Below are positions 21,158 through 40,325 of a DNA stretch of 41,437 nucleotides, one piece after another. Both the position numbers and the translations under genes were made by a program. Origin of the DNA: Actinomycetes bacterium. Its GTDB lineage: Bacteria > Actinomycetota > Thermoleophilia > BMS3ABIN01. The notes below the pieces were generated by a model. It worked only from the letters and a program-made list of their open reading frames with translations. It did not search any database and was not told the DNA's origin. Numbering within the stretch: the first letter of the stretch is position 1; each line of letters begins with the position of its first letter. The DNA is taken from the NCBI GenBank assembly GCA_024276735.1, contig JAJRWQ010000050.1, positions 1-41,437 of the forward strand, written 5' to 3'.

Positions 21158-22260
21158 CCATGGAGGCGGCACCGGGAAAGACGCACCTGGACGCGGTGGA
21201 GGAGAAGGTGCGCGCCGGCGAGCGCCTCTCCTTCGAGGACGGCATGGCCCTGCTGGAGAGCCGTGACCTCCTGCGCGTGGGGGCGATGGCCGACCTCGCC
21301 CGCAGGCGCATCGCCGGCGACGAGGTCTACTTCGTCAACAACCGGCACATCAACCACACCAACGTCTGCGGCAACCGTTGCCGTTTCTGCGCCTTCAGCG
21401 TCGAGGAGGGCGGCGAGGGCGCCTATACCATGACCCTGGACGAGGTGCTGGAGCGGGCGCGCGAGTCGCTGGCCGACGGCATCACCGAGCTGCATATCGT
21501 CGGCGGCGAGCATCCCTCGCTGCCCTACGATTACTACGTGGAGATGATCGCCGCCCTGCACCGGCTGGACCCCCCGGTGCACATCCAGGCGTTCACCGCC
21601 AGCGAGATCGCCTTTTTTGCCCGCCGCGCCGGCAAGAGCGTGCGCGAGGTGCTGCTGGAGCTGAAACAGGCGGGACTGGGTAGCCTCCCCGGCGGCGGCG
21701 CCGAGATCTTTTCCGAGCGGGTGCGGGGCCAGGTTTGCAGCCGCAAGATCTCCGGCGACGGCTGGCTGGAGGTGATGCGCACCGCCCACCAGGTGGGGCT
21801 CAAGTCCAACGCCACCATGCTCTACGGCCACGTGGAGACGCCGGCGGAGCGAATCGAGCACCTGCTGAAACTGCGGGAGCTCCAGGACGAGACCGGCGGC
21901 TTCGGCAGCTTCATCCCCCTTTCCTTCCACCCGGCCAACACCGAGCTGGAGCACCTGCCCGGCCCCACCGGCTTCGACGACCTGCTGATGCTGGCGGTGA
22001 GCCGGCTGATGCTGGACAATTTCCGCAACATCAAGGCTTTCTGGATCATGACCGGCGTCAAGCTGGCCCAGGTATCGCTGCATTTCGGGGTCAACGACAT
22101 CGACGGTACCGTGGTGGAGGAGAAGATCACCCACTCCGCCGGCGCCACCACTGGCGAGGCGCTGGCCAAGGAGGAATTGGTGCGGCTGATCCGCGACGCT
22201 GGCCGCGTGCCGGTGGAGCGTGACACCCTCTACAACGTCGTGCGCCGTTACCAGGCCTAG
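21154..22260 (+). CDS. mqnE: Aminofutalosine synthase MqnE (radical SAM)
   Basis: CGNRCRFCAF radical SAM motif, AFTASEI, LPGGGAEIFSERVRGQVCSRKISGDGWLEVMRTAHQVGLKSNATMLYGHVET. Confidence 0.92.
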   Translation: MTMEAAPGKTHLDAVEEKVRAGERLSFEDGMALLESRDLLRVGAMADLARRRIAGDEVYFVNNRHINHTNVCGNRCRFCAFSVEEGGEGAYTMTLDEVLERARESLADGITELHIVGGEHPSLPYDYYVEMIAALHRLDPPVHIQAFTASEIAFFARRAGKSVREVLLELKQAGLGSLPGGGAEIFSERVRGQVCSRKISGDGWLEVMRTAHQVGLKSNATMLYGHVETPAERIEHLLKLRELQDETGGFGSFIPLSFHPANTELEHLPGPTGFDDLLMLAVSRLMLDNFRNIKAFWIMTGVKLAQVSLHFGVNDIDGTVVEEKITHSAGATTGEALAKEELVRLIRDAGRVPVERDTLYNVVRRYQA

Positions 22261-22335
22261 CGGCACGGCGCCGGGTGCGGCCCTGCCTGCGGCTGCCTCC
22301 CGGGACCGGGCCTTGGGGCCATTGCGAGGAAAGAG

Positions 22336-23208
22336 ATGGCGAGCACCAGGGAAAAAGAGGACCTCCAGCGGGCGACGATCCGCATCGGTCACTTCGAGTT
22401 TCTCAACGGCTACCCCCTGTACTACGGGCTGGAGCGGGGCGCCGGCTGGAACTGCTTCCAGCTGGTGAGCGGCGTGCCCACCCGCCTCAACCGGCTGCTG
22501 CTGGAGGGCGGCCTGGACATCGGCCCCATATCCTCCATCGAGTACGCCGCCCACGCCGGCGAGCTGCTGCTCTTGCCGCGCATCTCCATCACCGCCGACG
22601 GTGCCGTGGACAGCATCCGCCTCATTTCCCGGAAGCCCATCGAGACGGTGACCGCGGTGGGGCTCACCGCCCAGAGCGCCACCTCGGTGGTGCTGCTGGA
22701 GGTGATCCTGGAGCAGGCCTACGGGCTGTCGCCGCGCTACGACCGGCTGGACGACGCCGCCGGCGGTGGTGACCTGGCGGCGCAGCTCGCCGGGCGCGAC
22801 GCGGTGTTGCTGATCGGTGACCGGGCGCTGGAGGCGCATTACGGTGACACCCGGGGGCTCTACAGCTACGACCTGGGCAGCGAGTGGAAGCGGCTCACCG
22901 GCCTGCCGATGGTCTTCGCCCTCTGGGCGGTACGTCGCTCCTTCTACCGGGAGCGCCCGGAGGAGACCCTGGAGGTACAGGACCGCCTGCTTTATTCCCT
23001 GGAGTACTGCCGCGGCCACTGGGACGAGGTGGTGGCGGCGGCGGCCGGGGTCTACCCCTTCTCCGAGGAGCTGCTGCGCTCGTATTTCCGGCGCCTGCGC
23101 TACGATCTCACCGACGAGTACCGCCGGGGGCTTACGGAGTTCTACCGCCGGGCGGCGGCGGTGGGCGCGGCGGCGGCGGTGCCGGAGCTGGAATTCGTGG
23201 GAGGCTGA
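22336..23208 (+). CDS. mqnA: Chorismate dehydratase MqnA
   Basis: IRIGHFEFLNGYPLYYGLE, GVPTRLNRLLLEGGLDIGPISSIEYA, LLPRISITADGAVDSIRLISRKP; flanked by mqnE and mqnC. Confidence 0.9.
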   Translation: MASTREKEDLQRATIRIGHFEFLNGYPLYYGLERGAGWNCFQLVSGVPTRLNRLLLEGGLDIGPISSIEYAAHAGELLLLPRISITADGAVDSIRLISRKPIETVTAVGLTAQSATSVVLLEVILEQAYGLSPRYDRLDDAAGGGDLAAQLAGRDAVLLIGDRALEAHYGDTRGLYSYDLGSEWKRLTGLPMVFALWAVRRSFYRERPEETLEVQDRLLYSLEYCRGHWDEVVAAAAGVYPFSEELLRSYFRRLRYDLTDEYRRGLTEFYRRAAAVGAAAAVPELEFVGG

Positions 23209-23210
23209 AG

Positions 23211-24272
<1,062 letters not shown>

Positions 24273-24384
24273 TTTCCGCCGCCGCGCGCTGACCCGGACC
24301 CGCCGCGGGCGGGGGACGGGGTTGAAAAAACGCTGCCGCTGCCCTGCCGGCCTGCCGCCGCCGTGGCCACCAACGCCACCGCAA

Positions 24385-24414
24385 TTGACTTTACCCCGGG
24401 GCTGCTGCTAGAAT
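24385..24414 (+). promoter_or_regulatory. Sigma70-type promoter of the hdr-flx operon (TTGACT-N18-TAGAAT)
   Basis: TTGACT at 24385-24390, TAGAAT at 24409-24414. Confidence 0.7.
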
Positions 24415-24425
24415 CTGTTACAAGT

Positions 24426-24443
24426 TTGAGAAAACTTTCACAA
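24426..24443 (+). promoter_or_regulatory. Rex-like operator (TTGAGAA-AACT-TTCACAA)
   Basis: 18-mer with one mismatch from a TTGTGAA-N4-TTCACAA palindrome, located just downstream of the predicted -10. Confidence 0.65.
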
Positions 24444-24444
24444 G

Positions 24445-24518
24445 CTCGACGGTCTGCCACGGCTTTCTGGGGGGAGCTGGAAGCAGAGGTTGGCACCGCC
24501 GAGTTTTGTTGTTTTTTC
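24445..24518 (+). terminator. Large terminator-like hairpin with U tract in the hdr-flx leader
   Basis: CTCGACGGTCTGCCA pairs with TGGCACCGCCGAG (12 bp, one mismatch, 2-nt bulge), directly followed by TTTTGTTGTTTTTT. The loop contains a smaller GCTTTC/GGAAGC hairpin. Confidence 0.65.
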
Positions 24519-24592
24519 GGGGCTTGTAACGCGTGCGGGTGCGGCCGGCCGGGGAACCGGCGGCGCCACGTGGCCGGAAGGTGGCGAGGGCG

Positions 24593-25159
24593 ATGATCGA
24601 GGCAGCGAAGACGATCAGGGCCGGCGAGGAGATGCTGGCGGAGATCGAGCGCCGTTCGGGGCAGGATGTTTCCTCCTGCTACCAGTGCGGCACCTGCAGT
24701 TCCACCTGCACCGCCACCCTTGCCTTCGACTACCCGCCGCACCTGTTCATGCGCCTGCTGCAGCTGGGGCTGGTGGAGCGGGCACTGGCCTCGCGCACGG
24801 CCCAGATGTGCTACGACTGCATGACCTGTTCCTCGCGCTGTCCCGTGGGCATCGACGTCGCCGACGTGATCGAGACCACCAAGAACATCGCCGACGAGTC
24901 CGGCCGTTCCCGGCCGCCGAAGGAGGTGGCGCTCTTCCGCCGCCTCTTCCTGAGGAACGTCTGCCGCCACGGGCGCCTGCACGAGGCCGGCCTGCTGGCC
25001 TGGTACAACATCAAGAGCGGGCAGTTCTTCAACGATCTTTCCCTGGTGCCGTTGGTGCTGAGGAAGAAGAAAGTGCACCTGGTGCCGCCGCGGATCCGCC
25101 AGCGGCGCGAGCTCAGGCGCATTTTCCGGCAGGCAAAGACGAAACCGGGGGCCAAGTGA
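24593..25159 (+). CDS. hdrC: Heterodisulfide reductase-like subunit C (4Fe-4S)
   Basis: SSCYQCGTCSSTCTATLAFDYPPHLFMRLLQLG and MCYDCMTCSSRCPVGIDVADVIE. Confidence 0.9.
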   Translation: MIEAAKTIRAGEEMLAEIERRSGQDVSSCYQCGTCSSTCTATLAFDYPPHLFMRLLQLGLVERALASRTAQMCYDCMTCSSRCPVGIDVADVIETTKNIADESGRSRPPKEVALFRRLFLRNVCRHGRLHEAGLLAWYNIKSGQFFNDLSLVPLVLRKKKVHLVPPRIRQRRELRRIFRQAKTKPGAK

Positions 25160-26031
25160 GCAAGTACGCCTACTTTCCCGGCTGCTCGCTGGCCAGCAGC
25201 TCCATGGAGTACGACACCTCCTTCCGGCTGGTGGCGCGGGAGTTCGGCATCGAGCTTCAGGAGCTCGACGACTGGAACTGCTGCGGCGCCTCGCCGGCGC
25301 CCCACCACTGGGTGGAGGTGCTGGGGGTGCTGCTGGCGGCGCGCAACCTGCACATCGCCGGCGCCGGCGAGGCGCCGCTGGTGGCGCCCTGCGCCGGCTG
25401 CTACAACCGGTTGAAGCACGCCCAGTACAAGCTGGAGCGTAACCAGGAGCTGCGCCGCCAGACCAGCGAGGTGCTGGGGGAAGAGGTGCGTTACCAGACC
25501 GAAGTGTTGAACATCGTCAAGATGCTCAACCGGGAGATCAAGCCCGGGGCGCTGGCGGAACGCGCCCGCGAACGCTTGGCCGGCGTCAGGCTGGCCCCGT
25601 ACTACGGCTGCCTGCTGGTGCGCCCGGCGGAGGTGATCGGCTACGACGATCCCCGGGACCCGAAAAAGATGGAGCCGCTGCTTAGGGCCACCGGCGCCGA
25701 GGTGCCCCACTTCGCGCTCAAGAGCGAATGCTGCGGCTCCTACATGGGCCTGGCCCGCAAGGAGATCGTGCTCCGCGCCAGCCACCGCATCATCGAGGCG
25801 GCGGTGGCGGCGGGGATCGACGCCCTGGTCACCGCCTGTCCCCTATGCCAGCAGAACCTGGACCTGCGCCAGGGGCAGATCAACAGGGCCTTCGGCACCT
25901 CCTTCCGGCTGCCGGTGCTCTACTTCAGCCAGGCGATCGGGCTGGCCCTGGGTGCCTCGCCCGAAGAGCTGGGCATCGACTCGCTGGCGGTGGAGCCGGA
26001 CGTGGACCGCTGGCTGAAAGGAGCGGCCTGA
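25156..26031 (+). CDS. hdrB: Heterodisulfide reductase-like subunit B (two CCG domains)
   Basis: YAYFPGCSLASSSMEYDTS, LDDWNCCGAS, APCAGCYNR, ECCGSYMG, ACPLCQQNLD. Confidence 0.93.
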   Translation: MSKYAYFPGCSLASSSMEYDTSFRLVAREFGIELQELDDWNCCGASPAPHHWVEVLGVLLAARNLHIAGAGEAPLVAPCAGCYNRLKHAQYKLERNQELRRQTSEVLGEEVRYQTEVLNIVKMLNREIKPGALAERARERLAGVRLAPYYGCLLVRPAEVIGYDDPRDPKKMEPLLRATGAEVPHFALKSECCGSYMGLARKEIVLRASHRIIEAAVAAGIDALVTACPLCQQNLDLRQGQINRAFGTSFRLPVLYFSQAIGLALGASPEELGIDSLAVEPDVDRWLKGAA

Positions 26032-27989
26032 TGCGCATCGGCGTCTTCGTCTGCCAGTGCGGCACCAACATCGCCGCCACCGTCGATACCGAGGCGGTGG
26101 CGGAAGCGGCCATGTCGATGCGCGACGTCTACCACGCCGAGAGCATCCAGTACTCGTGTTCCGATCCCGGGCAGCGGCAGGTGATCGCCGCCGCCCACCA
26201 GCACCGGCTGGACCGGGTGGTGATCGCCGCCTGCTCGCCGCGCATGCACGAGACCACCTTCCAGCGGGCGGTGATCCAGGCGGGCATCAATCCCTTCATG
26301 CTGGAGATGGTGAACATCCGCGAGCAGTGCTCGTGGATCCACGAGGACCGGGAGGTGGCGACCACCAAGGCCATCGACCTGGTGGCGGCCGGCGTGGCGC
26401 GGGTGCGCGGCCAGGTGCCGCTGAAGCGGGGACGGGTGCCGGTGGTGGGTGAGGCGCTGGTGGTCGGCGGCGGCATCGCCGGTATCCAGGCGGCGCTGGA
26501 CATCGCCGATGCCGGCATGCCGGTGACGCTGGTGGAGCGGGAACCCACCATCGGCGGCAACATGGCGCGGCTGGACAAGACCTTTCCCACCCTCGACTGC
26601 TCGTCGTGCATCCTCACCCCGCGTATGGTGGAGCTCAAGCACCACGAGAACATCAGGCTGATGGTGAGCTCGGAAGTGACCGCCGTGCGCGGCTACATCG
26701 GCAACTTCGAGGTGGACATCCGCAAGAAGGCCACCTGCGTGGACGAGGAGAAATGCACCGGCTGTCGCATCTGCGAGGAGAAATGCCCCAGCAGGGCGCC
26801 GGACGAGTTCAACGCCGGCGTGGGCGAATCGAAGGCGATCTCCATCGCCTTCCCCCAGGCGGTGCCCCTGGTGGCGGCGCTGCGCAAGGAGCACTGCCGC
26901 CAGTTCATCAAGGGCAAGTGCGGCGTCTGCAAGAAGGTCTGCCCGGCGGACGCCGTGGACTACGAGCAGGAGGACGAGCTGCACACGGAGAAGTTCGGCG
27001 CCATCATCGTCGCCACCGGCTACCGGCTCTTCGACTGGGAGGGCGCCTACCCGGACTACGGCGGCGGCCTCTACCCGGACGTCATCACCTCCCTGCAGTA
27101 CGAGCGTATGCTCTCGGCCTCGGGCCCCACGGGCGGTCACATCGTCCGCCCCTCCGACGGCCGGGAGCCGCGGGACATCGTCTTCCTCTCCTGCGTGGGC
27201 TCGCGCGCCGAGTCGGTGGGACGCCCCTTCTGCTGCAACGTCGGCTGCATGTACATCGCCAAGCAGGCGATCCAGACCCGGGAGCACCTGCCCGACTCGC
27301 GCTGCTACGTCTTCTACATGGACGTACGCGCCTGCGGCAAGGGCTACGAGGAGGTCTACCGCCGCGCCCAGGTGGAGGCGGGGGCCGTCTACCTGCGGGG
27401 GCGGGTGGGCAAGATCTATCCCCGCGGCGACAAGCTGGTGGTGATGGGTACCGATACTCTCATCGGCGACCAGGTGGAGATCGAGACCGACCTGGTGGTG
27501 CTGGCGGTAGGCTTCGCCGCCGCCGAGGGCGCGGGGGAGCTGGCGCGGCGGCTGAACATCGCCTACGACGGCTACCAGTTCTTTACCGAAAGCCATCCCA
27601 AGCTGCGGCCGGTGGAGACCACCACCGGCGGCATCTTCCTTGCCGGCGCCTGCCAGGGGCCCAAGGACATCCCCGCCTCGGTGGCGCAGGCGAGCGCCGC
27701 TGCCGCCAAGGCCATCCGCCTGCTCTCGCGGGAGGACCTGGAGACCAGCCCCATGGTGGCCGAGGTGAACCACATGCGCTGCATCGGCTGCTTCAAGTGC
27801 GCCGAGGTTTGTCCCTACAATGCCATCGAGAAACAAAAGCTGCATGACGGCCGCACGGTGGCGGTGATCATCGAGTCCCTGTGCCAGGGGTGCGGGCTCT
27901 GCAACGTGGCCTGCCCGCCGCAGGTGATCTCGCTGCGCGGCTATACCGACAACCAGCTGATCTCGGAAGTGGTGGAGGTGCTCAGGTGA
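26031..27989 (+). CDS. hdrA: Heterodisulfide reductase-like subunit A (FAD, multiple 4Fe-4S)
   Basis: GVFVCQCGTNI, ALVVGGGIAGIQAALDIADAG, CTGCRICEEKCP, CGVCKKVCPADAV, CIGCFKCAEVCPYNAI, CQGCGLCNVACPPQVI. Confidence 0.95.
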   Translation: MRIGVFVCQCGTNIAATVDTEAVAEAAMSMRDVYHAESIQYSCSDPGQRQVIAAAHQHRLDRVVIAACSPRMHETTFQRAVIQAGINPFMLEMVNIREQCSWIHEDREVATTKAIDLVAAGVARVRGQVPLKRGRVPVVGEALVVGGGIAGIQAALDIADAGMPVTLVEREPTIGGNMARLDKTFPTLDCSSCILTPRMVELKHHENIRLMVSSEVTAVRGYIGNFEVDIRKKATCVDEEKCTGCRICEEKCPSRAPDEFNAGVGESKAISIAFPQAVPLVAALRKEHCRQFIKGKCGVCKKVCPADAVDYEQEDELHTEKFGAIIVATGYRLFDWEGAYPDYGGGLYPDVITSLQYERMLSASGPTGGHIVRPSDGREPRDIVFLSCVGSRAESVGRPFCCNVGCMYIAKQAIQTREHLPDSRCYVFYMDVRACGKGYEEVYRRAQVEAGAVYLRGRVGKIYPRGDKLVVMGTDTLIGDQVEIETDLVVLAVGFAAAEGAGELARRLNIAYDGYQFFTESHPKLRPVETTTGGIFLAGACQGPKDIPASVAQASAAAAKAIRLLSREDLETSPMVAEVNHMRCIGCFKCAEVCPYNAIEKQKLHDGRTVAVIIESLCQGCGLCNVACPPQVISLRGYTDNQLISEVVEVLR

Positions 27990-28486
27990 TGGCGGACGCC
28001 GGCAAGGGACACGCCTGCGGCGTGCGGCGCCGGGGCCGCGACGACGAGATCAAGCTGGTGGGCTTTCTCTGCAACTGGTGCTCCTACGCCGGCGCCGACA
28101 TGGCGGGCACCTCGCGGCTGGCCCAGCCGGCGGCGCTGCGGATCGTGCGCGTGCCCTGCTCCGGGCGCGTGGACCCGCTGCTGGTGATGAAGGCGTTCCA
28201 GGAAGGAGCGGACGGGGTGCTGGTGAGCGGCTGCCACCCCGGCGACTGCCACTACAACGAGGGCAACTACTACGCCCGCCGGCGGCTGGAGCTGCTGAAG
28301 CGCATGCTGCCCTACTACGGCGTGGAGCCGGAGCGCTTCCACTACACCTGGGTGAGCGCCTCGGAGGGCGGCCGCTGGGCGGAGGTGGTGGCGGAATTCA
28401 CCGCCGCGGTGGAGCCGCTGGGCAAGCTGCACTACGCCGGCGGCGCGCCGGCGGCCGCGGCCGGGGAGGAAGACGGCGATGGATGA
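27989..28486 (+). CDS. flxD: MvhD/FlxD-like [2Fe-2S] electron-transfer subunit
   Basis: KLVGFLCNWCSYAGADMAGTSRLAQP, RVPCSGRVDPLLVMKAFQEGADGVLVSGCHPGDCHYNEGNYYARRR. Confidence 0.9.
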   Translation: MADAGKGHACGVRRRGRDDEIKLVGFLCNWCSYAGADMAGTSRLAQPAALRIVRVPCSGRVDPLLVMKAFQEGADGVLVSGCHPGDCHYNEGNYYARRRLELLKRMLPYYGVEPERFHYTWVSASEGGRWAEVVAEFTAAVEPLGKLHYAGGAPAAAAGEEDGDG

Positions 28487-29405
28487 GCTGGTAAAGGCGA
28501 TAACCGCGGCGCTCGAGGATTGCGAGCTGGTGCTGGGCTGGGCGCGAGACCCCGCCACCGGCGCCGGCCGGCCGGAGCGCTTCACCAGCGCCGGGCAGGC
28601 GCAGGAAGCGATCTTCGATGCCACCTGCGTGCACAACCTGGCGGTGCACCTGCCGCGGCTGAAGCAGCGGCGGGTGGGCATCGTCGTCAAGGGATGCGAC
28701 GCCCGCAGCGTGGTGGAGCTGGTGGTGGAGCGCGAGGTCGAGCGCGAGCGGGTGCAGGTGATCGGCGTCGGCTGCGACGGCGTCCTGGACCTGAAGCGCA
28801 TCTGGCGCCGCCACGGCTACGGTGTCGCCATCGAGGACGACGGGGAGACCCTGCTGGTGGACGGCAGCGAGGTGGAGCGGCAGCCGCTCCTGCAGCACAA
28901 GTGCCGTCACTGCCTCGATGCCGATCCCTCCATCTACGACGTGGTCGTGGGCGGGCGCACGGCGGAGGGCCCCGAGCCCCGCGGCGAGCGGCAGGAGCTG
29001 GCGGAGCGCTTCCGGGAGATGACGCCCTCCCAGCGGCGGGATTTCTGGCGCCGCCAGTTCGCGCGCTGCATCCGCTGTTACGCCTGCCGCGAGGCCTGCC
29101 CCATGTGTTTCTGCCGCGACGTCTGCATCATGCAGACGCAGGTGCCCCACTGGGCGGGCGGGGAGGTCAATCCCAAGGAGGCGGAGATGATCCAGCTGAT
29201 CCGCGTGGGCCACCTCGCCGGCCGCTGCACCGGCTGCGGCGAGTGCGAGCGCGCCTGCCCGGTGGAGATCCCGCTGATGCTGCTGATGGAGGAACAGAAC
29301 CGGGCCCTGGAGGAGATGCTGGACTACCGCGCCGGCACCGACATCGAGGCGCGGCCGCCGTTGCTCACCTTCGATCCCGACCGTGACCTGTGGGGTGACG
29401 AGTAA
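28479..29405 (+). CDS. flxC: FlxC-like iron-sulfur protein with FrhB-type N-terminal region
   Basis: VGIVVKGCDARSVVELVVE; CIRCYACREACPMCFCRDVC; CTGCGECERACPVEIPLMLLM; position between flxD and flxB. Confidence 0.75.
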   Translation: MDELVKAITAALEDCELVLGWARDPATGAGRPERFTSAGQAQEAIFDATCVHNLAVHLPRLKQRRVGIVVKGCDARSVVELVVEREVERERVQVIGVGCDGVLDLKRIWRRHGYGVAIEDDGETLLVDGSEVERQPLLQHKCRHCLDADPSIYDVVVGGRTAEGPEPRGERQELAERFREMTPSQRRDFWRRQFARCIRCYACREACPMCFCRDVCIMQTQVPHWAGGEVNPKEAEMIQLIRVGHLAGRCTGCGECERACPVEIPLMLLMEEQNRALEEMLDYRAGTDIEARPPLLTFDPDRDLWGDE

Positions 29406-30424
29406 TGAAGTTCATTGCCCGGGAGGACATCCCCCGCTGGCTGGAGCGCCTGGCGCAGGCGGCGGCGGTCTGGACGCCCCGGCGGGCGCCTGACGGCGGC
29501 GAGACGGTGCTCTTCCTTCCCTGGGAACAGGGCAGCGAGCCGGAGCTGGACCGTTTCACCGATCTCTCGGCCAAGCACCTGCTGCTGCCGGCCAGCGAAA
29601 AGCTTTTCCCCTTCCAGTACCGCCTGGGCGGCGAGGGTGAGCAGATCGAGATCGGCGCCGCCCCGGCGACGCCGGAGTCGGTGGTGCTCTTTGGCGCGCG
29701 GGCCTGCGACGCCCGGGCGACGGTGGTGCTGGACGCCCTCTTCATGCAGTCGCCGGAAAAGGGCTACCTCGCCCCCTACTACCGCCGCCGTCGCCAGGCG
29801 CTGGCGGTGATCACCCTGGCCTGCACCCGCGCCGACGCCGCCTGCTTCTGCTCCTCCTGGGAGGAGGGAACCGCCTCGCGGGAGGGCTCCGACGTGATGC
29901 TCTTTCCCCACGAGGACGGTTACCTGGCGGAAGCAGTGACCGGCAGGGGCGAGGAGCTGATCGGCGGCGAGCCGTTCAGCGAGCGCGACGCCGGGCCGCC
30001 GGACACCGCGGTCACCGACCAGGTGCCGCTGGCAGGGCTCCAGGAGAAGTTCACCGCCGTCTTTTCCCGGCTGGATTTCTGGGAAGAGGTCACCGCCAGG
30101 TGCATCTCCTGCGGCTACTGCACCTATGCCTGCCCCACCTGCCACTGCTTCAACATCTTCGACGAGATGCGCGACGACCGCTGCGGCGAGCGCTGCCGCA
30201 GCTGGGACGCCTGCATGTTCTACCTCTACACCCTGGAGACCTCCGGCCACAACCCGCGGCCGACGATCGCCCATCGCTACCGCAACCGCATCGGCCACAA
30301 GTTCAGCTACTACCCGGAGAACCAGGGCACGTTCCTCTGCACCGGCTGCGGCCGCTGCATCCGCGGCTGCCCGGTGTCACTGGACATCCGCGACGTGCTG
30401 AGGAAGGTAGGTGATGCCCGATGA
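29405..30424 (+). CDS. flxB: FlxB-like 4Fe-4S protein (sulfhydrogenase beta-subunit family)
   Basis: VVLFGARACDARATVVLDALFM, CISCGYCTYACPTCHCFNIFDE, FLCTGCGRCIRGCPVSLDIRDVL. Confidence 0.85.
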   Translation: MKFIAREDIPRWLERLAQAAAVWTPRRAPDGGETVLFLPWEQGSEPELDRFTDLSAKHLLLPASEKLFPFQYRLGGEGEQIEIGAAPATPESVVLFGARACDARATVVLDALFMQSPEKGYLAPYYRRRRQALAVITLACTRADAACFCSSWEEGTASREGSDVMLFPHEDGYLAEAVTGRGEELIGGEPFSERDAGPPDTAVTDQVPLAGLQEKFTAVFSRLDFWEEVTARCISCGYCTYACPTCHCFNIFDEMRDDRCGERCRSWDACMFYLYTLETSGHNPRPTIAHRYRNRIGHKFSYYPENQGTFLCTGCGRCIRGCPVSLDIRDVLRKVGDAR

Positions 30425-31278
30425 CCACCACCGCGCGCGCGGGACGGGCGGCGGCGGAGCCGCTGCGCCCGGAGCCGGCCACCATCGTGGAGGTGATCGA
30501 GGAGACGCCCAACATCAAGTCGCTGCGGGTGGTGTTCGACGACGGGGAACTGATGAAGAGTTTCTCCTTCGCTCCCGGGCAGGTGGGCCAGCTGGGCATC
30601 CTGGGGGTGGGCGAGGCCACCTTCGCCATCTCCTCGGCACCCTCGGAGAAGGACTTCCTGCAGTTCTCGGTGATGAAGACCGGGGTGGTCACCACCGCCA
30701 TCCACGAGCTGGCCGCCGGCGACAAGGTGACGCTGCGGGCGCCGCTGGGCAACAGCTTCCCGGTGGAGGAATGGCGGGGGAAGAACGTGCTGGTGGTGGG
30801 CGGCGGCATCGGCATGGCGCCGCTGCGCTCGCTGTTCATGCACCTGATGGATCACCGCGAGGACTACGGTGACCTGCAGCTGATCTACGGCGCCCGCACG
30901 CCCGCGGACGTCTGCTTCTCCTCCGACTGCAGCCTCTGGAGCGAGAAGCGGGACGTGGACTTCATCACCACCATCGACGCCGAGCACCCCGAGTGGGGAG
31001 GGCGCGTGGGCCTGGTGCCCTCGGTGCTGGAGGAGGAGAACCCCTCGCCGGAGAACAACGTCGCCGTCACCTGCGGCCCGCCGGTGATGCTCAAGTTCGT
31101 GTTCGAGAGCCTGGAGAAGCTGGGCTTCAGGGAGGACCAGGTCTACACCACCCTCGAGCGCCGCATGAAGTGCGGCATCGGCCTCTGCGGCCGCTGCAAC
31201 GTCGGCCCCCGCTACGTCTGCGTCGACGGCCCCGTTTTCTCGCTGGCGGAGCTGCGGCGCCTGCCCGACGAGCTGTGA
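30421..31278 (+). CDS. flxA: FlxA-like FAD/NAD(P)-binding oxidoreductase (FNR/PyrK-type with [2Fe-2S])
   Basis: FAPGQVGQLGILGVGEATFAISSAPSEKDFL, GKNVLVVGGGIGMAPLRSLF, CGPPVMLKFVFESL, MKCGIGLCGRCNVGPRYVCVDGPVF. Confidence 0.9.
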   Translation: MTTTARAGRAAAEPLRPEPATIVEVIEETPNIKSLRVVFDDGELMKSFSFAPGQVGQLGILGVGEATFAISSAPSEKDFLQFSVMKTGVVTTAIHELAAGDKVTLRAPLGNSFPVEEWRGKNVLVVGGGIGMAPLRSLFMHLMDHREDYGDLQLIYGARTPADVCFSSDCSLWSEKRDVDFITTIDAEHPEWGGRVGLVPSVLEEENPSPENNVAVTCGPPVMLKFVFESLEKLGFREDQVYTTLERRMKCGIGLCGRCNVGPRYVCVDGPVFSLAELRRLPDEL

Positions 31279-31372
31279 CGGCGGCCACCCGCCCCCTGAC
31301 TGAGAACGCCGCGGGCTCCTGCTAGAATGGTGGCGCCGCAGGCAAGCAGAACCGGGAAAGGGGGAACCACGG

Positions 31373-32029
31373 ATGAAGATCGAATGGATCGGGCACAGCT
31401 GTTTTCTTGTCACCGCTGCCTCGGGCCGCCAGTTGGTCACCGACCCCTACGACATTTCCGCGTATCCCGACCAGCTGTTCTACCAGCCGGTGTCGGCGAC
31501 GGCCGACGTGGTGACGCTCAGCCACGCGCACGGCGACCACGGCAACGCCGCCGCGGTCTCCGGTGACCCGGTGGTGATCACCACCCCCGGGGTCCACGAG
31601 GTGGAGGGTTTCACCATCAGGGGGGTTCCCACCTTCCACGACGGGGAACAGGGGTCCTCGCGGGGCGAGAACGTCGTGTTCGTGATCGGCGTGGACGGGC
31701 TCAGCCTCTGCCACCTGGGCGACCTGGGGCACGAGCTCCAGCCGGAGCAGGTGAGGGAGATCGGCCCCGTGGACGTGCTGCTGCTGCCGGTGGGGGGCAC
31801 CTTCACCATCGATGCCGCCGCCGCCGGGAGGGTACAGCGGCAGCTGGAAGCGGCGGTGACCATCCCCATGCACTTCCGCAACCGGCAGTGCTCGTTTCCC
31901 ATCGATGGCGTCGATGTCTTCCTGGAGGGCAAGGACGGCGTGGAGCGCCCCGGCACCTCCTTCGTGGAGCTGACGCAGGAAAACTTCCCCGCCGGGCCGA
32001 AGATTATCGTGCTCGAGCCCGCCGCCTGA
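31373..32029 (+). CDS. MBL-fold (UlaG-like) metal-dependent hydrolase
   Basis: MKIEWIGHSCFLV...DVVTLSHAHGDHGN...LCHLGDLGHEL...VDVLLLPVGGTFTID...IPMHF. Confidence 0.92.
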   Translation: MKIEWIGHSCFLVTAASGRQLVTDPYDISAYPDQLFYQPVSATADVVTLSHAHGDHGNAAAVSGDPVVITTPGVHEVEGFTIRGVPTFHDGEQGSSRGENVVFVIGVDGLSLCHLGDLGHELQPEQVREIGPVDVLLLPVGGTFTIDAAAAGRVQRQLEAAVTIPMHFRNRQCSFPIDGVDVFLEGKDGVERPGTSFVELTQENFPAGPKIIVLEPAA

Positions 32030-32125
32030 GGCGGCCCCGGGCCGCCGGCGTTTTCCCGGTCCCCCCGTGGCGGCGACGCTGCCGTCATGGCCAGGGAACC
32101 GGGGCGGGAAAAAAAGGAGACAGCA

Positions 32126-32905
32126 TTGGCCTTATTGTTGATTTTCTTGTTCGTGATCGGCTCGGTATTCGGCAGTTTCCTCAACGTGGTCATCTACCGG
32201 GTACCCCGTGAAGAAGGCTGGCGCCGGCAGCTGCGGAGCCTGCTGGCTCCCGGCTCCCGCTGCCCCGCCTGCGGCGGCGATATCGCCTGGTACGACAACA
32301 TCCCCATCCTGGGGTACCTGCTGCTGGGCGGCAAGTGCCGCCGCTGCGGCGAGCCCATCTCCCGGCGTTACCCGCTGGTGGAGCTGGCCACGGCGGCGCT
32401 CTTCGCCCTGGCGGGCTGGAAGTTCGGGCTCGACTGGGCACTCTTGCCGGCGCTGATCTTCATCGCCGCCCTGGTGGCGATCTTCTTCATCGATCTCGAT
32501 TTCTACATCATCCCCAACGTCATCGTGCTGCCGGCGGCAGTGGCGGGGCTGGTCCTGGCCGTCGCCGTCGACCCGGGGCGCTGGCTGGAGCTGCTGATCG
32601 CCGGCGCCGCCGCCGGCGCCTTCTTCTTCGCCATTGCCTTCATCAAGCCCGGCGGCATGGGCATGGGCGACGTGAAGCTGGCGGCGATGCTCGGCTTCTA
32701 CCTGGGAAAGGCGGTGATCGTCGCCGTCTTCCTGGGCTTTCTCCTGGGCGCGGTGGCGGGGCTGGCGCTGATCGCCGCGGGGCGCAAGGGGCGCAAGAGC
32801 CGCATCCCCTTCGGGCCGTTCCTGGCGGCGGGCGGGCTGGTGGCGCTGTTCACCGGCACCTGGCTCCTGGACACGTACCTGGGGCTCTTCAACCAGAGCA
32901 TGTAA
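32126..32905 (+). CDS. pilD: Prepilin peptidase (A24 family)
   Basis: GSVFGSFLNVVIYRVP, CPACG...CRRCG, FFIDLDFYIIPN and GMGMGDVKLAAMLG catalytic Asp motifs. TTG start with AAAGGAGA upstream. Confidence 0.92.
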   Translation: MALLLIFLFVIGSVFGSFLNVVIYRVPREEGWRRQLRSLLAPGSRCPACGGDIAWYDNIPILGYLLLGGKCRRCGEPISRRYPLVELATAALFALAGWKFGLDWALLPALIFIAALVAIFFIDLDFYIIPNVIVLPAAVAGLVLAVAVDPGRWLELLIAGAAAGAFFFAIAFIKPGGMGMGDVKLAAMLGFYLGKAVIVAVFLGFLLGAVAGLALIAAGRKGRKSRIPFGPFLAAGGLVALFTGTWLLDTYLGLFNQSM

Positions 32906-32985
32906 ACGGGGGCGGCGCCACCCGGTGCTCCGGCCGGCCTTAACACTTCTTAACACGGGCGGGCGAGAACGGCGCTGCTTTCCGG

Positions 32986-32991
32986 TATAAT
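32986..32991 (+). promoter_or_regulatory. -10 element (TATAAT) upstream of the TPR gene
   Basis: TATAAT at 32986-32991; poor -35, with TTAACAC direct repeats just upstream. Confidence 0.5.
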
Positions 32992-33051
32992 TTCAATTGC
33001 GGCGCGGCCCTGGGCCGGCGGCTCGAGTTTCGATATCCGGAGGTAGGTTCT

Positions 33052-33645
33052 TTGCAGATCAAGTCGTACTACTGGGCGATCTTCGCTGCCATCGGGGCGA
33101 TAGTAGTGGTGCTGGTGATCCTGCCGCTGGTCTACCGCGGCGGCGACCAGGACTCGCCGCACTCGGCGGTGGACATGGCCGCCATCCACGACTCCGAGCC
33201 GGTGGACTTCACGCCGCAGATCGAGGCCTACCAGGAGCTGATCGCCGCCAATCCCAACGACGCCCTGGCGCTGGCGGGGCTGGGCGAGTTCTACATGGGC
33301 ACCGGCAACTACCAGCAGGCGGTGGACCAGCTCAACAAGGCGCTCGCCATCGAACCCCAGAACCCTTCGTACCACCGGCTCCTGGGCGAGGTGTATTACT
33401 CGATGCGCATGCCGGACGTGGCCATCCACGAGTTCGAGAAGGGCCTGGCCAGCGATCCCAACAACCAGCAGATCCTCCTGGACCTGGGCAACGTCTATGC
33501 CCAGACCGGCCAGCCGGACAAGGCGCGCGAGCTCTGGCAGCGGGCCTACGACATCAATTCCCGCAACCGCTGGGGCCACGTCGCCCAGCAGCTGATCGCC
33601 CAGCAGGAGAACCCCGAGAGCAGCGCCAACGCCCCCGACCTGTAG
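33052..33645 (+). CDS. Membrane-anchored TPR-repeat protein
   Basis: N-terminal TM AIFAAIGAIVVVLVILPLV; TPR units ALALAGLGEFYMGTGNYQQAVDQLNKALAIEPQN etc. TTG start with GGAGGT upstream. Confidence 0.85.
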   Translation: MQIKSYYWAIFAAIGAIVVVLVILPLVYRGGDQDSPHSAVDMAAIHDSEPVDFTPQIEAYQELIAANPNDALALAGLGEFYMGTGNYQQAVDQLNKALAIEPQNPSYHRLLGEVYYSMRMPDVAIHEFEKGLASDPNNQQILLDLGNVYAQTGQPDKARELWQRAYDINSRNRWGHVAQQLIAQQENPESSANAPDL

Positions 33646-33918
33646 GCGCCCGCCACCGCTCCCCACCTTCTACCCTGTCCCACGCCCCACCTCTCCCCCC
33701 GGTGGCTGCCGCGAGCCTGGAACAGCCGCGACGCGCCGGCCTTCCTGCCTGAAAACCCCGTCGTAGGGGCGAGATCACGGGCTTCCGGGGTCATGCAACG
33801 TGGATTGCAGGCGGCCCCTGGCCCGGCTCGATTGCAACGAAATCTGCGAATTTTTACGCAAATTGGGAGAAAACCCGGGGGGAAAGGACCATTTTTTTGC
33901 ATGAAGAAGCTTTACTTG

Positions 33919-33943
33919 TGGGGAATGGTGGTATAAAGTGGTG
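33919..33943 (+). promoter_or_regulatory. MraZ operator: three TGG-type direct repeats at 10-bp spacing
   Basis: TGGGG (33919) - N5 - TGGTA (33929) - N5 - TGGTG (33939), upstream of mraZ. Confidence 0.75.
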
Positions 33944-33970
33944 AAAATTTAACCGGCCCCCAAGGGAAAA

Positions 33971-34399
33971 ATGGCGAATTTCAAGTTTTTCGGGTCGTAC
34001 CAACACAATATGGATTCGAAGAACAGGGTGGCGATTCCTGCAAAGTTTCGCCAGAGCATCGGCGACGAGGAGTTGGTGGTGACGGAATCCTTCGAAGGCT
34101 GCCTGATGGTGATGACCCAGTCGGACTGGCAGCGGCTGGCGGCCCGGAAGCTGGAGAACCTCGATTATTTCGACAGCATGAACGACCGGGGCGTGGAGCG
34201 GATGATGGTGGGCGTGATGGAGATCTGCAGCCTGGACAAGCAGGGACGCATCAGCCTCACGCCCCAGCTGGTGCGGCTGGCGGGGCTTCGCAAGGAAGTG
34301 ATTCTCATGGGCGTGAGGGACAAGTTCGAAATCTGGGACCGCAAGCGCTGGGAGGCCTACCGGGCCGATTTCCGCAAGCGGATGGCGGAGGGACGGTGA
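33971..34399 (+). CDS. mraZ: Division/cell wall cluster transcriptional regulator MraZ
   Basis: FFGSYQHNMDSKNRVAIPAKFRQSI; SLDKQGRISLTPQLVRLAGLRKEVILMGVRDKFEIWD. Confidence 0.96.
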   Translation: MANFKFFGSYQHNMDSKNRVAIPAKFRQSIGDEELVVTESFEGCLMVMTQSDWQRLAARKLENLDYFDSMNDRGVERMMVGVMEICSLDKQGRISLTPQLVRLAGLRKEVILMGVRDKFEIWDRKRWEAYRADFRKRMAEGR

Positions 34400-34444
34400 G
34401 TGCCCGCCGCCTTCCATCAAACCCAGGTGGAGGGAGAAGGGATC

Positions 34445-35413
34445 ATGCACCTGAACGACGGAATGGAACAGGCGGTACCTGACAGCGGCCACCAGCCGGT
34501 GCTGGCCGACGAGCTGGTGGAGCTGCTCGATCCCCGGCCGGGGGACAGGGTGGTCGACTGCACCTTCGGTGCCGGCGGCCACGCTGCCCGGGTAGCGGCG
34601 CTCATCGGGGAAGAGGGTGACTTCTATGCCGTCGATCGCGACCCCCTGGCGAGGAGCTATTACGAGACCTTTTACCGGCAGCAGCAGTGCCGCTGCCACT
34701 TCATCCAGGGCAACTTCGCCGACGTGCTGGCGGACATGTACGAGAGGGGGCTGACGGTCAACCTGGTTTACCTCGACCTCGGCGTCTCCTCCATGCAGCT
34801 GGACCGTCCCGAGCGCGGCTTCTCCTACAGTTACAACGCGCCCCTGGACATGCGCATGGACCCCGAGGGCGGGGTGACCGCGCGCCAGCTGGTGAACGAG
34901 CTGCCCTACGACGAGCTGGTACGGATCTTCCGCGAGTTCGGCGAGGAACGTTATTCCCGCCAGATCGCCCGCCGCATCGTGCGCGAGCGGGAGCAGCGGC
35001 CCTTCGAGACCACCCTGCAGCTGGTGGACACGGTGAAGGCGGCCATTCCCACCCCGGCCCGTTTCGGGGCCGGCCATCCCGCCCGGCGCGTCTTCCAGGC
35101 CCTGAGGATCGCGGTCAACGACGAGCTCAGTTCCCTGCAGCGGGGGCTGGAGAACGCCCTCCGCATTCTCGCTCCCGGCGGTTGCCTGGTGGTGATCAGC
35201 TTCCATTCGCTCGAAGACCGCATCGTCAAGCGTTTCTTCAATTCCCGGGTGGGGCGCTGCGAGTGCCCGCCCGATCTTCCCCGCTGCGCCTGCGGCGCCG
35301 AGGCGGAGCTGAGGGTGCTCACGCGCCGGCCGGTGACGCCCACCGCGGCCGAGCGCGCTGCCAATCCCCGCTCGCAATCCGCCCGGCTGCGGGCGGCGGA
35401 AAAGCTCGACTGA
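34445..35413 (+). CDS. rsmH: 16S rRNA (cytosine(1402)-N(4))-methyltransferase RsmH
   Basis: HQPVLADELVELL, DCTFGAGGHA, LDLGVSSMQLDRPERGFSYSYNAPLDMRMD, VISFHSLEDRIVKRFF. Confidence 0.96.
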   Translation: MHLNDGMEQAVPDSGHQPVLADELVELLDPRPGDRVVDCTFGAGGHAARVAALIGEEGDFYAVDRDPLARSYYETFYRQQQCRCHFIQGNFADVLADMYERGLTVNLVYLDLGVSSMQLDRPERGFSYSYNAPLDMRMDPEGGVTARQLVNELPYDELVRIFREFGEERYSRQIARRIVREREQRPFETTLQLVDTVKAAIPTPARFGAGHPARRVFQALRIAVNDELSSLQRGLENALRILAPGGCLVVISFHSLEDRIVKRFFNSRVGRCECPPDLPRCACGAEAELRVLTRRPVTPTAAERAANPRSQSARLRAAEKLD

Positions 35414-35422
35414 GGAGAAGGC

Positions 35423-35878
35423 ATGGGAAGCACGGCCAGGAAGGACTGGGGTTTCGAGGACGCGGTCGCCGCCCTCGAGCAGGAGACGCAGCGGCGGACC
35501 CCGGTGCGGCCGGCACCCCGGCCGGCGGCCCCGGCGGCCGGCGGCATGATCCGCGCCGGCTTCCTGCTCACGGCGGCGGTGGCGGTGATGCTCATCGGCC
35601 TGGTGGCGCTGCACGTTTCCATCCTGCAGAAGCACCGCGAGTACAGCGAGCTGGTGGACGAGAAGAATTCCCTCGCGGCGGAGAACGCCCATCTCTCGGG
35701 CGAGGTGGCCGCCCTGCGTTCGCCGGCGCGCATCGAGGCGATCGCCACCGGGCAGCTGGGAATGGTGTCCCCCAAGAATATCGAGTACGTCTACATCGGT
35801 CCCGACGGCGCCAGGAGCGACTATGCCCGGGTGGATTACCCGCCGGGCGCCGCCGGAGGATCGCCGGCGACCCCCTAG
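35423..35878 (+). CDS. ftsL: FtsL-like cell division protein (short TM + coiled coil)
   Basis: Single TM FLLTAAVAVMLIGLVALHVSIL, coiled coil, ARIEAIATGQLGMVSPKNIEYV; positioned between rsmH and ftsI. Confidence 0.75.
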   Translation: MGSTARKDWGFEDAVAALEQETQRRTPVRPAPRPAAPAAGGMIRAGFLLTAAVAVMLIGLVALHVSILQKHREYSELVDEKNSLAAENAHLSGEVAALRSPARIEAIATGQLGMVSPKNIEYVYIGPDGARSDYARVDYPPGAAGGSPATP

Positions 35879-35884
35879 GCAGCG

Positions 35885-37540
35885 GTGCTGGCCAACCCGG
35901 ACAGGCGCATCCGCTGGCTACTTCTCGGTTTCGCATTGCTCTTCGCCGCCATCGTGGCGCGCGCCTCTTACCTGCAGGTGGTCCAGGCGCAGGAATACTC
36001 GCAGATGGCGGATTCTCTCCACGTCACCGAGATCGACCTTCCCGCCCGCCGCGGCACCATCTACGACCGTAACGGCAACGAGCTGGCGGTGGGCGAGGAG
36101 ATGAAGACCATCTACGTGGACCCGCGGCAGGTGGAGGACCCGGTGGACGCCGCCCGCCGCCTGGCGCCGATCCTGGGCATCCCCGAGAACGAGCTCTACG
36201 CCCGGCTCACGGCCGAGGGCGGTTTCTCCTACTTGGCGCGCAAGCTCGATCCCGCCAAGGCGGAGGCCGCCATGGACCTGGGCATCGACGGCCTGGGAAC
36301 CATGAGCGAGGAAAAGCGCGTCTATCCCCAGAAGCAGCTGGCCTCCCAGGTGCTGGGCTATGCCGGCATCGACAACGAGGGCCTGGCGGGGCTGGAGCTG
36401 GAGATGAACTACGTGCTCGCGGGCGACCCCGGCCGGGAGCGGGTGATGCACGACGTCAGTGGCAAGCACCTGGAGATGCTCAACCTGGACGAGGGCCGCC
36501 GCGGCACCGATATCCGCCTCACCATCGACCAGTCGATCCAGTACCAGGCCGAGAAGGTGCTGGACGAGACGGTGGACAAGTGGGAGGCGAAGGGGGCGGT
36601 GGCGATCGTGATGGACCCCGACACCGGTGACATCTACGCCATGGTGGACGCCCCCACCGCCGATGCCAACCGCTTCGGCGAGCTACCCGAGGAGCGGCGG
36701 CGCAACCGCGCCGTCACCGACACCTACGAGCCCGGCTCGGTGTTCAAGGCCTTCACCGCCACCGCCGGCCTGGAGGAGGGCGCCATCGCCCCCGGCGAGA
36801 GGCTGCACCTGCCGCCGGTGCTGGAAGTGGGCGGGCGCAGGATCAAGGATTCATACGAGCGCGGCCCGGTGGACTGGGACCTGCAGAAGATCCTCGAGAA
36901 CTCGAGCAACGTCGGCGCCGCCATCATCGGCATGCGCGTGGGGCCGGAAAAGCTCGACGCCTGGATCCGCCGGCTGGGCTTCGGCAAGCCCACCGGCATC
37001 GACTTCCCCGGCGAGGCCACCGGCATCGTCCTGCCCCTGGACCAGTGGTCCGGCTCCACCATCGGCAACGTGCCCATGGGGCAGGGCATCGGCGTTACCG
37101 CCATCCAGATGGCCACCGGTTACTGCGTGATCGCCAACGGCGGTTTCGCCGTCAAGCCGCGGCTGGTGGCGGCGGTGGGCGACGACGAGCTGCCCACGGC
37201 GCTGGGAGAGCGCCTGATCAGCGGGCGCACCACCAGCCTCCTGCGCCGGTACCTGACCACGGTGGTGGACGGGCCGGTGGCGCCGGGGGCGCGGGTGGAT
37301 GGGTACGAGGTCGCCGGCAAGACCGGCACGGCCCAGAAACCGCTGCCCGACGGCAGCGGCTACTCCAACAACGCTTACGTGTCGTCTTTCATCGGCATGG
37401 TGCCGGCGGACGATCCGCAGCTGGTGATCCTGGTGGTGGTGGACGAGCCCCATCCCTCCGCGGGAGGCGCCGAGGTGGCGGCGCCCGCCTTCGGCGAGAT
37501 CGCCGCCTTCTCCCTGCAGCGGCTGGGGATAGCCCCGTGA
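35885..37540 (+). CDS. ftsI: Peptidoglycan transpeptidase FtsI/PBP2-type
   Basis: RRGTIYDRNGNELAV; YEPGSVFKAFT (SxxK); ENSSNVGA (SxN); VAGKTGTAQK (KTG). Confidence 0.94.
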   Translation: MLANPDRRIRWLLLGFALLFAAIVARASYLQVVQAQEYSQMADSLHVTEIDLPARRGTIYDRNGNELAVGEEMKTIYVDPRQVEDPVDAARRLAPILGIPENELYARLTAEGGFSYLARKLDPAKAEAAMDLGIDGLGTMSEEKRVYPQKQLASQVLGYAGIDNEGLAGLELEMNYVLAGDPGRERVMHDVSGKHLEMLNLDEGRRGTDIRLTIDQSIQYQAEKVLDETVDKWEAKGAVAIVMDPDTGDIYAMVDAPTADANRFGELPEERRRNRAVTDTYEPGSVFKAFTATAGLEEGAIAPGERLHLPPVLEVGGRRIKDSYERGPVDWDLQKILENSSNVGAAIIGMRVGPEKLDAWIRRLGFGKPTGIDFPGEATGIVLPLDQWSGSTIGNVPMGQGIGVTAIQMATGYCVIANGGFAVKPRLVAAVGDDELPTALGERLISGRTTSLLRRYLTTVVDGPVAPGARVDGYEVAGKTGTAQKPLPDGSGYSNNAYVSSFIGMVPADDPQLVILVVVDEPHPSAGGAEVAAPAFGEIAAFSLQRLGIAP

Positions 37541-37601
37541 GCGGCCGGCGCCGGGACGAAAGGGTGATATGTGTCGTGTCATGCTGTAGAATTACCGGCC
37601 G

Positions 37602-37844
37602 ATGAGGGCGGAGTCCTACCTCACCCGCCTCGACGGACTGCTGGCGTCCGTGGTCTACCAGCCCAGGGTGACCGGCAAGCGCGCCGCCGTTTCCGTCGCC
37701 TGCTGGCGGGCGCCGGCGAAGCCGGTCCGGGGTACGTGCACCACCGTCACCCGCGTTCCCGGTCGCAGCGTCCGCAGCCGCGCCGCCGGGGTGACGGCAT
37801 CGGCCACGCCGGTGTGTGGTTTCCGCCTCTCCCTGCACGGATAA
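37602..37844 (+). CDS. Small ORF of unknown function in the usual murE slot
   Basis: 80-codon ORF with a TAGAAT -10-like element just upstream; its TAA overlaps a possible murF ATG (TAATG). No recognisable domain. Confidence 0.25.
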   Translation: MRAESYLTRLDGLLASVVYQPRVTGKRAAVSVACWRAPAKPVRGTCTTVTRVPGRSVRSRAAGVTASATPVCGFRLSLHG

Positions 37845-37894
37845 TGATATTCCAGGAGCTGGAATCGCCCGGGAAGGCGCCGGCCTTGATAGCC

Positions 37895-39313
37895 ATGACC
37901 ATTGGAGATATCTGCCGCGAATGCGGCGGGGAGCTGCTGGCGGGATCTCCGTCCCAGGCAGTGACCGCGGTGACCACCGATACGCGCCGGCGGCTGGAGG
38001 GCGCGCTCTTCATCGGCATCGCCGGCGAGCGCTTCGACGGCGCCGACTTCATCGGTGACGCCCTCGACGGCGGCGCGGCGGCGGTGATGGCGGCGGCGCC
38101 GGCGGCCCGGGAGCTGGTGCAGGCACGGGGAGAGGAAGGGCTCGGCGATGCCGCGGTGATCGCCGTCGCCGATGGCGGCGAGGCGCTGCAGCGACTGGCC
38201 GCGGCCACGGCGCGCCAGAGCGGCGCCCGCATCGTCGCCGTCACCGGTTCCAGCGGCAAGACCTCCACCAAGGATTTCATCGCCACCATGCTCGCCGCCC
38301 GCTTTTCCGTCGTCGCCAGCCGCGGCAGCTTCAACAACGAGGTGGGGGTGCCGCTGACCCTGCTCGACGCCGGCGAGGACACCCGGGTGATCGTGGTGGA
38401 GATGGGCATGCAGGCGCCGGGCGAGATCGCGGCGCTGTGCCGCATCGCCCCGCCGGAGGTGGCGGTGATCACCAACGTGGGGCCGGCCCACCTGGAGTAC
38501 GCCGGCAGCCTGGAGGGGGTGGCCGCCGGCAAGGCGGAGATCGCTGCCTCGCTGCCCGCGGGCGGCGGCCTGGTGACACCATACGGCGAGAAGCTGCTGG
38601 AACCCCACCTCGAGGGCCTGGAGCTGGAGCGGCTCACCTTCGGCTTCGATCCCCGCGCCGACGTGCACCCCTTGCGCGAGGAGCCCGGGGAGGACGGCAT
38701 CGAGGCCACCATCGACCTCTGCGGCGAGAAGCTGGAACTGGGCTTTGCTTTCACCGCCCGCTACCAGCTGGCGAATGCCATGGCGGCGATGGCCGCCTGC
38801 CGGCTGCTGGGGATGCCCGCGGGGGAGATCGCCGCCGCGGCCGGCGGCATCGGTGCCGGCGGCCGGCGGGGCGAGGTACTGTCCCTCCCGGGAGAGCGGC
38901 TGCTGATCGACGATTCGTACAACGCCAACCCCCTCTCCATGGAGGCGGCGCTGGAGCACCTGGTGCGCCTCGCCGGCGCCGGCCGCAGCATCGCCGTCCT
39001 CGGCGACATGGGCGAGCTGGGCGCCGACGCCCCCGCGCTTCACCGCCGCGTGGGCCGGCGGGCCGCGGAGCTGGGGGTGGACGTGATCGTGGGGATAGGC
39101 AGGCTGGCGGCGGAGTACCTCGAGGGCGCCGCCGGCGTGGAGGCCCGGCCCCACGACCGTTGCTTCGCCGACCACGATAGCGCCGCGGCGTACGCGGATT
39201 CGCTCTCGGCGCCGGGAGACGTGCTGCTGGTGAAGGCCTCGCGTTTCATGGAGCTGGAAAGGGTGGTCGAGCGGCTCCGCGGCGGGGACGCCGGGGACGG
39301 GGAGCGGGGATGA
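37895..39313 (+). CDS. murF: UDP-N-acetylmuramoyl-tripeptide--D-alanyl-D-alanine ligase
   Basis: MTIGDICRECGGELLAGSPSQAVTAVTTDTRRRLEGALFIGI; VTGSSGKTSTKDF; SRGSFNNEVGVPLTLL; IDDSYNANPLSMEAAL. Alternative start ATG 37844. Confidence 0.94.
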   Translation: MTIGDICRECGGELLAGSPSQAVTAVTTDTRRRLEGALFIGIAGERFDGADFIGDALDGGAAAVMAAAPAARELVQARGEEGLGDAAVIAVADGGEALQRLAAATARQSGARIVAVTGSSGKTSTKDFIATMLAARFSVVASRGSFNNEVGVPLTLLDAGEDTRVIVVEMGMQAPGEIAALCRIAPPEVAVITNVGPAHLEYAGSLEGVAAGKAEIAASLPAGGGLVTPYGEKLLEPHLEGLELERLTFGFDPRADVHPLREEPGEDGIEATIDLCGEKLELGFAFTARYQLANAMAAMAACRLLGMPAGEIAAAAGGIGAGGRRGEVLSLPGERLLIDDSYNANPLSMEAALEHLVRLAGAGRSIAVLGDMGELGADAPALHRRVGRRAAELGVDVIVGIGRLAAEYLEGAAGVEARPHDRCFADHDSAAAYADSLSAPGDVLLVKASRFMELERVVERLRGGDAGDGERG

Positions 39314-40287: not shown

Positions 40288-40325
40288 GCCATGGCTGCGG
40301 GCCGCCACGGCCCGCGGCCGGCGCA

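Follow-up and report, generated by a model that had tools for sequence, protein, structure and literature searches.

FlxABCD-HdrABC of Desulfovibrio vulgaris, reportedly described by Ramos et al. in 2015, is the described system closest to the operon considered here. The two have in common the gene set hdrABC and flxABCD with an NAD(H)-binding FlxA; however, the present locus belongs to another lineage and its gene order is hdrCBA-flxDCBA.

For the NADH/NAD+-responsive repressor Rex, the general operator consensus is TTGTGAAN4TTCACAA (PMC3441419), and a variant known from Clostridiaceae, TTGTTAANNNNTTAACAA, has the half-site TTGTTAA (PMC8457756). Rex in Desulfovibrio has been linked to Rnf and sulfate-reduction genes (PMC4215793) and to sat (PMC11451228). 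The Rex literature that we found did not cover the present lineage, and a literature search, incomplete for Desulfovibrio Rex targets, returned no statement on Rex control of hdr-flx. Our locus shares several features with the Rex regulons known from Desulfovibrio and Gram-positive bacteria (TTGTGAA-N4-TTCACAA/TTGTTAA-N4-TTAACAA): the operator sequence, a site that overlaps the region where an NADH-linked operon starts, a rex gene in the genome, and tandem sites in some species. By contrast, hdr-flx would be the main target here and fhs a weaker one, and no operator with ≤2 mismatches was found at rex itself or near the other rex genes of the family.

Promoter, Operator and Operon

The window, i.e., the whole stretch of 41,437 nucleotides that was analyzed, carries the hdrCBA-flxDCBA genes in one direction with short overlaps (Table 1), and their domain content agrees with the operon identity given in the original prediction. 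Among the subunits encoded is one that binds NAD(H); the gene upstream of the operon is mqnC, and the source bacterium is probably anaerobic. TTGACT-N18-TAGAAT is the top of three promoter-like sites within positions 22000-41437, where shuffles give 0.8, and transcription is predicted to start at about 24421. Relative to this inferred start, the operator covers about +6 to +23, and it differs from TTGTGAA-N4-TTCACAA at one position. Re-reading of the window sequence found the predicted promoter and operator exact in both letters and coordinates, and the statement that the window lacks a second comparable site also held, with no other match to TTGTGAA-N4-TTCACAA at ≤3 mismatches. CTGTTACAAGTTTGAGAA, which overlaps the operator, fits the family operator profile less well (16 bits, against 29 for the operator itself) and is possibly a degenerate second site. 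A perfect competing palindrome, AAGTTT-GAGA-AAACTT (24423-24438), was not conserved in most relatives and was dropped.

Table 1. Features of the hdr-flx locus, in window coordinates.
Feature	Positions	Strand	Basis or remark
Promoter TTGACT-N18-TAGAAT, sigma-70/SigA-type	24385..24414	+	TTGACT 24385-24390, TAGAAT 24409-24414; conserved in family
Weaker match to family operator profile, CTGTTACAAGTTTGAGAA	24415..24432	+	Overlaps main site; possible degenerate second site
Putative Rex-type operator TTGAGAA-AACT-TTCACAA, TTGAGAAAACTTTCACAA	24426..24443	+	Sequence match; kept in 19/19 family genomes
Leader hairpin	24445..24503	+	5′ arm CTCG-A-CGGT-CT-GCCA (24445-24459), variable loop, 3′ arm TTGGC-ACCG-C-CGAG (24490-24503)
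T-rich tract, TTTTGTTGTTTTTT	24504..24517	+	Directly after hairpin; intrinsic-terminator-like, putative attenuator
hdrC	24593..25159	+	TIGR03290-related; 4Fe-4S dicluster
hdrB	25162..26031	+	TIGR03288-related, two CCG domains; start codon approximate
hdrA (HdrA2-like)	26028..27989	+	Domain searches
flxD (MvhD/FlpD domain)	27989..28486	+	PF02662
flxC (Fe-S dicluster protein)	28479..29405	+	Domain searches
flxB (AsrA/HydB-like Fe-S protein)	29405..30424	+	Domain searches
flxA (FAD/NAD(P)-binding reductase subunit)	30421..31278	+	Domain searches

Rex and the Conservation of the Operator

The regulator presupposed by the prediction is encoded in the same genome by a single clear rex gene (L001 1474-2112; 212 amino acids), which lies directly 3′ of an apparent hemL. 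The protein carries DNA-binding and nucleotide-binding domains, scores above several NCBIfam Rex equivalog cut-offs, and aligns nearly full-length to Rex crystal structures (best 3ikt, E 2e-45), its stretch QIRKDLSYFG corresponding to QVRKDLSYFG of Thermus Rex. Within the family sample, consisting of this genome and 18 relatives (19 genomes, seven genera), rex was found in 18 genomes; the exception, G001, is 90% complete and retains the operator. Most relatives have two rex paralogues, whereas the window's genome has only one.

All 18 relatives encode hdrC (58-67% identity), and in the oriented hdrC upstream regions each of them has TTGTTAA-N4-TTCACAA with ≤2 mismatches. Aligning these orthologous regions, the predicted 18-mer is kept just past the -10 and upstream of hdrC in all 19 genomes, which do not count as 19 independent events since the genomes are related, yet represent seven genera with much diverged flanks. 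Promoters of hdrC in the family read TTGACT-N17/18-TARAAT, TAAACT and similar, and the operator lies 8-12 nt past the -10 in the 17 genomes for which our script chose the adjacent promoter; in G017 and G011 it picked another promoter, and the arrangement, judged by eye, matches that of the other genomes. All 19 genomes share an unchanged right arm, TTCACAA, along with T2, G3, and A6 of the left one, which otherwise drifts (TTGAGAA, CTGTTAA, TTGTTAA, TTGGGAA, CTGTTAT). Dyad symmetry peaks at the operator register, with 5.5 of 7 positions complementary versus at most 3.2 at other offsets. In sequence terms, the commonest family operator is one half-site of the general Rex consensus combined with one of the Clostridiaceae variant. 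Eight relatives have a second copy that starts 20-21 bp upstream, i.e., about two turns of the DNA, and overlaps the -10, and this spacing and overlap are as expected of a DNA-binding repressor rather than an RNA element. Near hdrC homologs in other families of the class, no site with ≤2 mismatches was found, except for one match near the end of L061.

With rex present, the 18-mer conserved, and the operon identified by its domains, the Rex reading is supported, and 24426-24443 is most probably an operator for Rex at the hdrCBA-flxDCBA promoter. Since none of the 18 sampled relatives has lost it, the site is very likely to represent a real, although conventional, redox switch, and its position fits a repressor. 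Several points count against Rex, namely the unequal half-sites, with an invariant right arm and a drifting left one, the operator in G001 where rex was not detected, the lack of a site near the rex genes of the family and near hdrC homologs in other families of the class, and the two rex paralogues of most relatives, either of which might act there.

A Conserved Hairpin in the Leader

Immediately downstream of the operator is an element absent from the earlier note: positions 24445-24517 read CTCGACGGTCTGCCA ... TTGGCACCGCCGAG, then TTTTGTTGTTTTTT. Most relatives have the same hairpin arms around a loop variable in length and sequence. In the nine outer pairs, 87% of cells are paired, and four pairs changed on both sides (compensatory); the same values for paired cells and covariation were attained by 3-6 of 500 shuffles, and by 34 of 500 for further pair types, with the arms cut by hand in a way that favors structure. 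Sliding the hairpin partner abolishes most of the pairing signal. The pattern of the element has one match in our genome and occurs mainly at hdr in the relatives, the few other matches looking unrelated. Our leader folds strongly (z -3.5), to which an outer pairing, GTTACAAG...CTTGTAAC, contributes; this long pairing (24417-24424 with 24523-24530) is absent from relatives and was dropped as a candidate.

The usual hairpin is replaced in G002, G014, and G010 (leaders L136, L135, and L137, respectively) by an unrelated hairpin that precedes a U-tract and has a perfectly conserved 23-base core, CTTATCCGGGTGGCTGAGGATAA, present once per genome; the one from G014, the sole one folded, is very stable (z -5.4). 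Searches of Rfam gave chance-level matches (E up to 5) for our own leader and nothing at gathering scores for the leaders of eight relatives, neither hairpin type being in Rfam, and neither a leader peptide nor a conserved alternative pairing was recognized by eye.

In G001, G004, and G008, hdrC starts within about 40 nt of the U-tract, a gap in which no separate promoter fits, and therefore hdr transcripts would have to read through the element. The locus resembles leader attenuators with an intrinsic terminator in the order of promoter, conserved hairpin with U-tract, and start codon; in addition, some relatives leave no space for a further promoter. However, it differs from them in its long variable loop and in having neither an Rfam family nor a recognized ligand domain or leader peptide. 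We infer that the hairpin attenuates transcription on top of Rex repression. A bolder proposal, which we regard as possible but doubtful, is that Hdr-Flx expression in this lineage has two controls, Rex acting where transcription starts and a novel leader attenuator, peculiar to this operon, that responds to another signal, in which case the replacement hairpin of the sub-group would hint at an RNA-binding factor or ligand. If confirmed, the leader hairpin would be the surprising part of this locus, as an extra layer of control.

Alternative Readings of the Site

A chance palindrome within an AT-rich patch might be suspected from the fact that the window holds one site only, yet this is hardly credible. 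Window shuffles yield a mean of 0.16 matches to TTGTGAA-N4-TTCACAA at ≤3 mismatches, and by pattern searches (rather than a PWM) 24426-24443 is the best match, and the sole site with ≤1 mismatch, in the 1.61-Mb assembly. A Markov model of the window composition (69% GC) produced zero sites with ≤1 mismatch in 30 Mb simulated, so that none is expected by chance in the genome. Chance is already contradicted by the conservation of the operator, given that genomes of all seven genera keep it at the same place. Alternatively, the conserved stretch, TTCACAAGCTCG..., could act as RNA, being the 5′ part of the leader hairpin or attenuator, with the Rex-like dyad incidental. The right half-site is indeed better conserved than the left and continues straight into the 5′ arm of the hairpin, and the AAG immediately before CTCG is able to pair with the U-tract. 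However, the upstream copy in eight relatives repeats both arms of the 18-mer mostly outside the transcript, extra sequence widens the gap between operator and hairpin in G006, G007, G016, and G012, the three genomes with the replacement hairpin still keep the operator, and a similar site occurs at the fhs promoter without this hairpin, making an RNA role very improbable.

The best rival to Rex is a regulator of the CRP/FNR family (CRP- or HcpR-type), since its consensus TGTGA-N6-TCACA overlaps that of Rex; for HcpR, wTGTGAnnnnnnTCACAw has been given (PMC1274295). Our genome encodes a CRP-type protein (L003 1611-2303, minus strand) with the CRP-like recognition helix SRETVTREL, and a perfect TTGTGA-N6-TCACAA lies just past the 3′ end of its gene (C29:33791-33808; L003 1501-1518), which we read as a probable site of that protein itself. 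At hdr, however, the left half-site has lost the TGTGA pattern and reads TGTTA or TGAGA in most relatives. The A and T flanking the N4 spacer, which belong to the Rex consensus, are mostly retained. The operator is also kept in G002 (98% complete), which has no match at all to the CRP-type HTH (PF13545), and in G004, G006, and G007, where no PF13545 match exceeds the cut-off, and it lies downstream of the -10, unlike the sites of CRP-type activators. Control by a CRP/FNR-type protein is, on this evidence, unlikely.

A Model for Rex Control and a Second Candidate Target

If Rex is the regulator, a Rex dimer would sit on the palindrome just past the start point when NADH is low and block initiation or promoter escape. 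Accumulating NADH would release Rex from the DNA, allowing the NADH-linked Flx-Hdr complex to be expressed from its operon; both the occupancy by Rex and the response to NADH are inferred steps. Transcripts would then reach the conserved terminator-like hairpin before hdrC, probably a second, attenuating layer.

Pattern matches in the relatives led to fhs, encoding formate-tetrahydrofolate ligase, where a second, weaker site absent from the earlier note is located. A TTCACAA half-site follows a strong fhs promoter in 12 of 17 genomes, 10 of which also have the left end TTGT, and the site usually begins about 12 bp past the -10, although its spacing and left arm vary more than at hdr and it is absent from the g3 genomes examined. 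In our genome, the site upstream of fhs, TTGTTCCGGATTTCACAA (L103; C117:2686-2703), is weaker than that at hdr and lies roughly 60 bp past the -10. These matches suggest that Rex may also control fhs and that its regulon may be small. In an uncultured lineage whose genomes also carry fhs, NADH sensing would then act directly on an NADH-linked electron-transfer complex, suggesting that one sensor might serve both Hdr-Flx and the methyl branch of one-carbon metabolism.

With regard to neighboring genes, the perfect TTGTGA-N6-TCACAA site at L003 1501-1518 precedes a gene for a small membrane protein. In G001, a gene for a small protein that appears DsrC/TusE-like by eye (L139 8477-8806) is located near fhs, folD-like, and CO-dehydrogenase-like genes.
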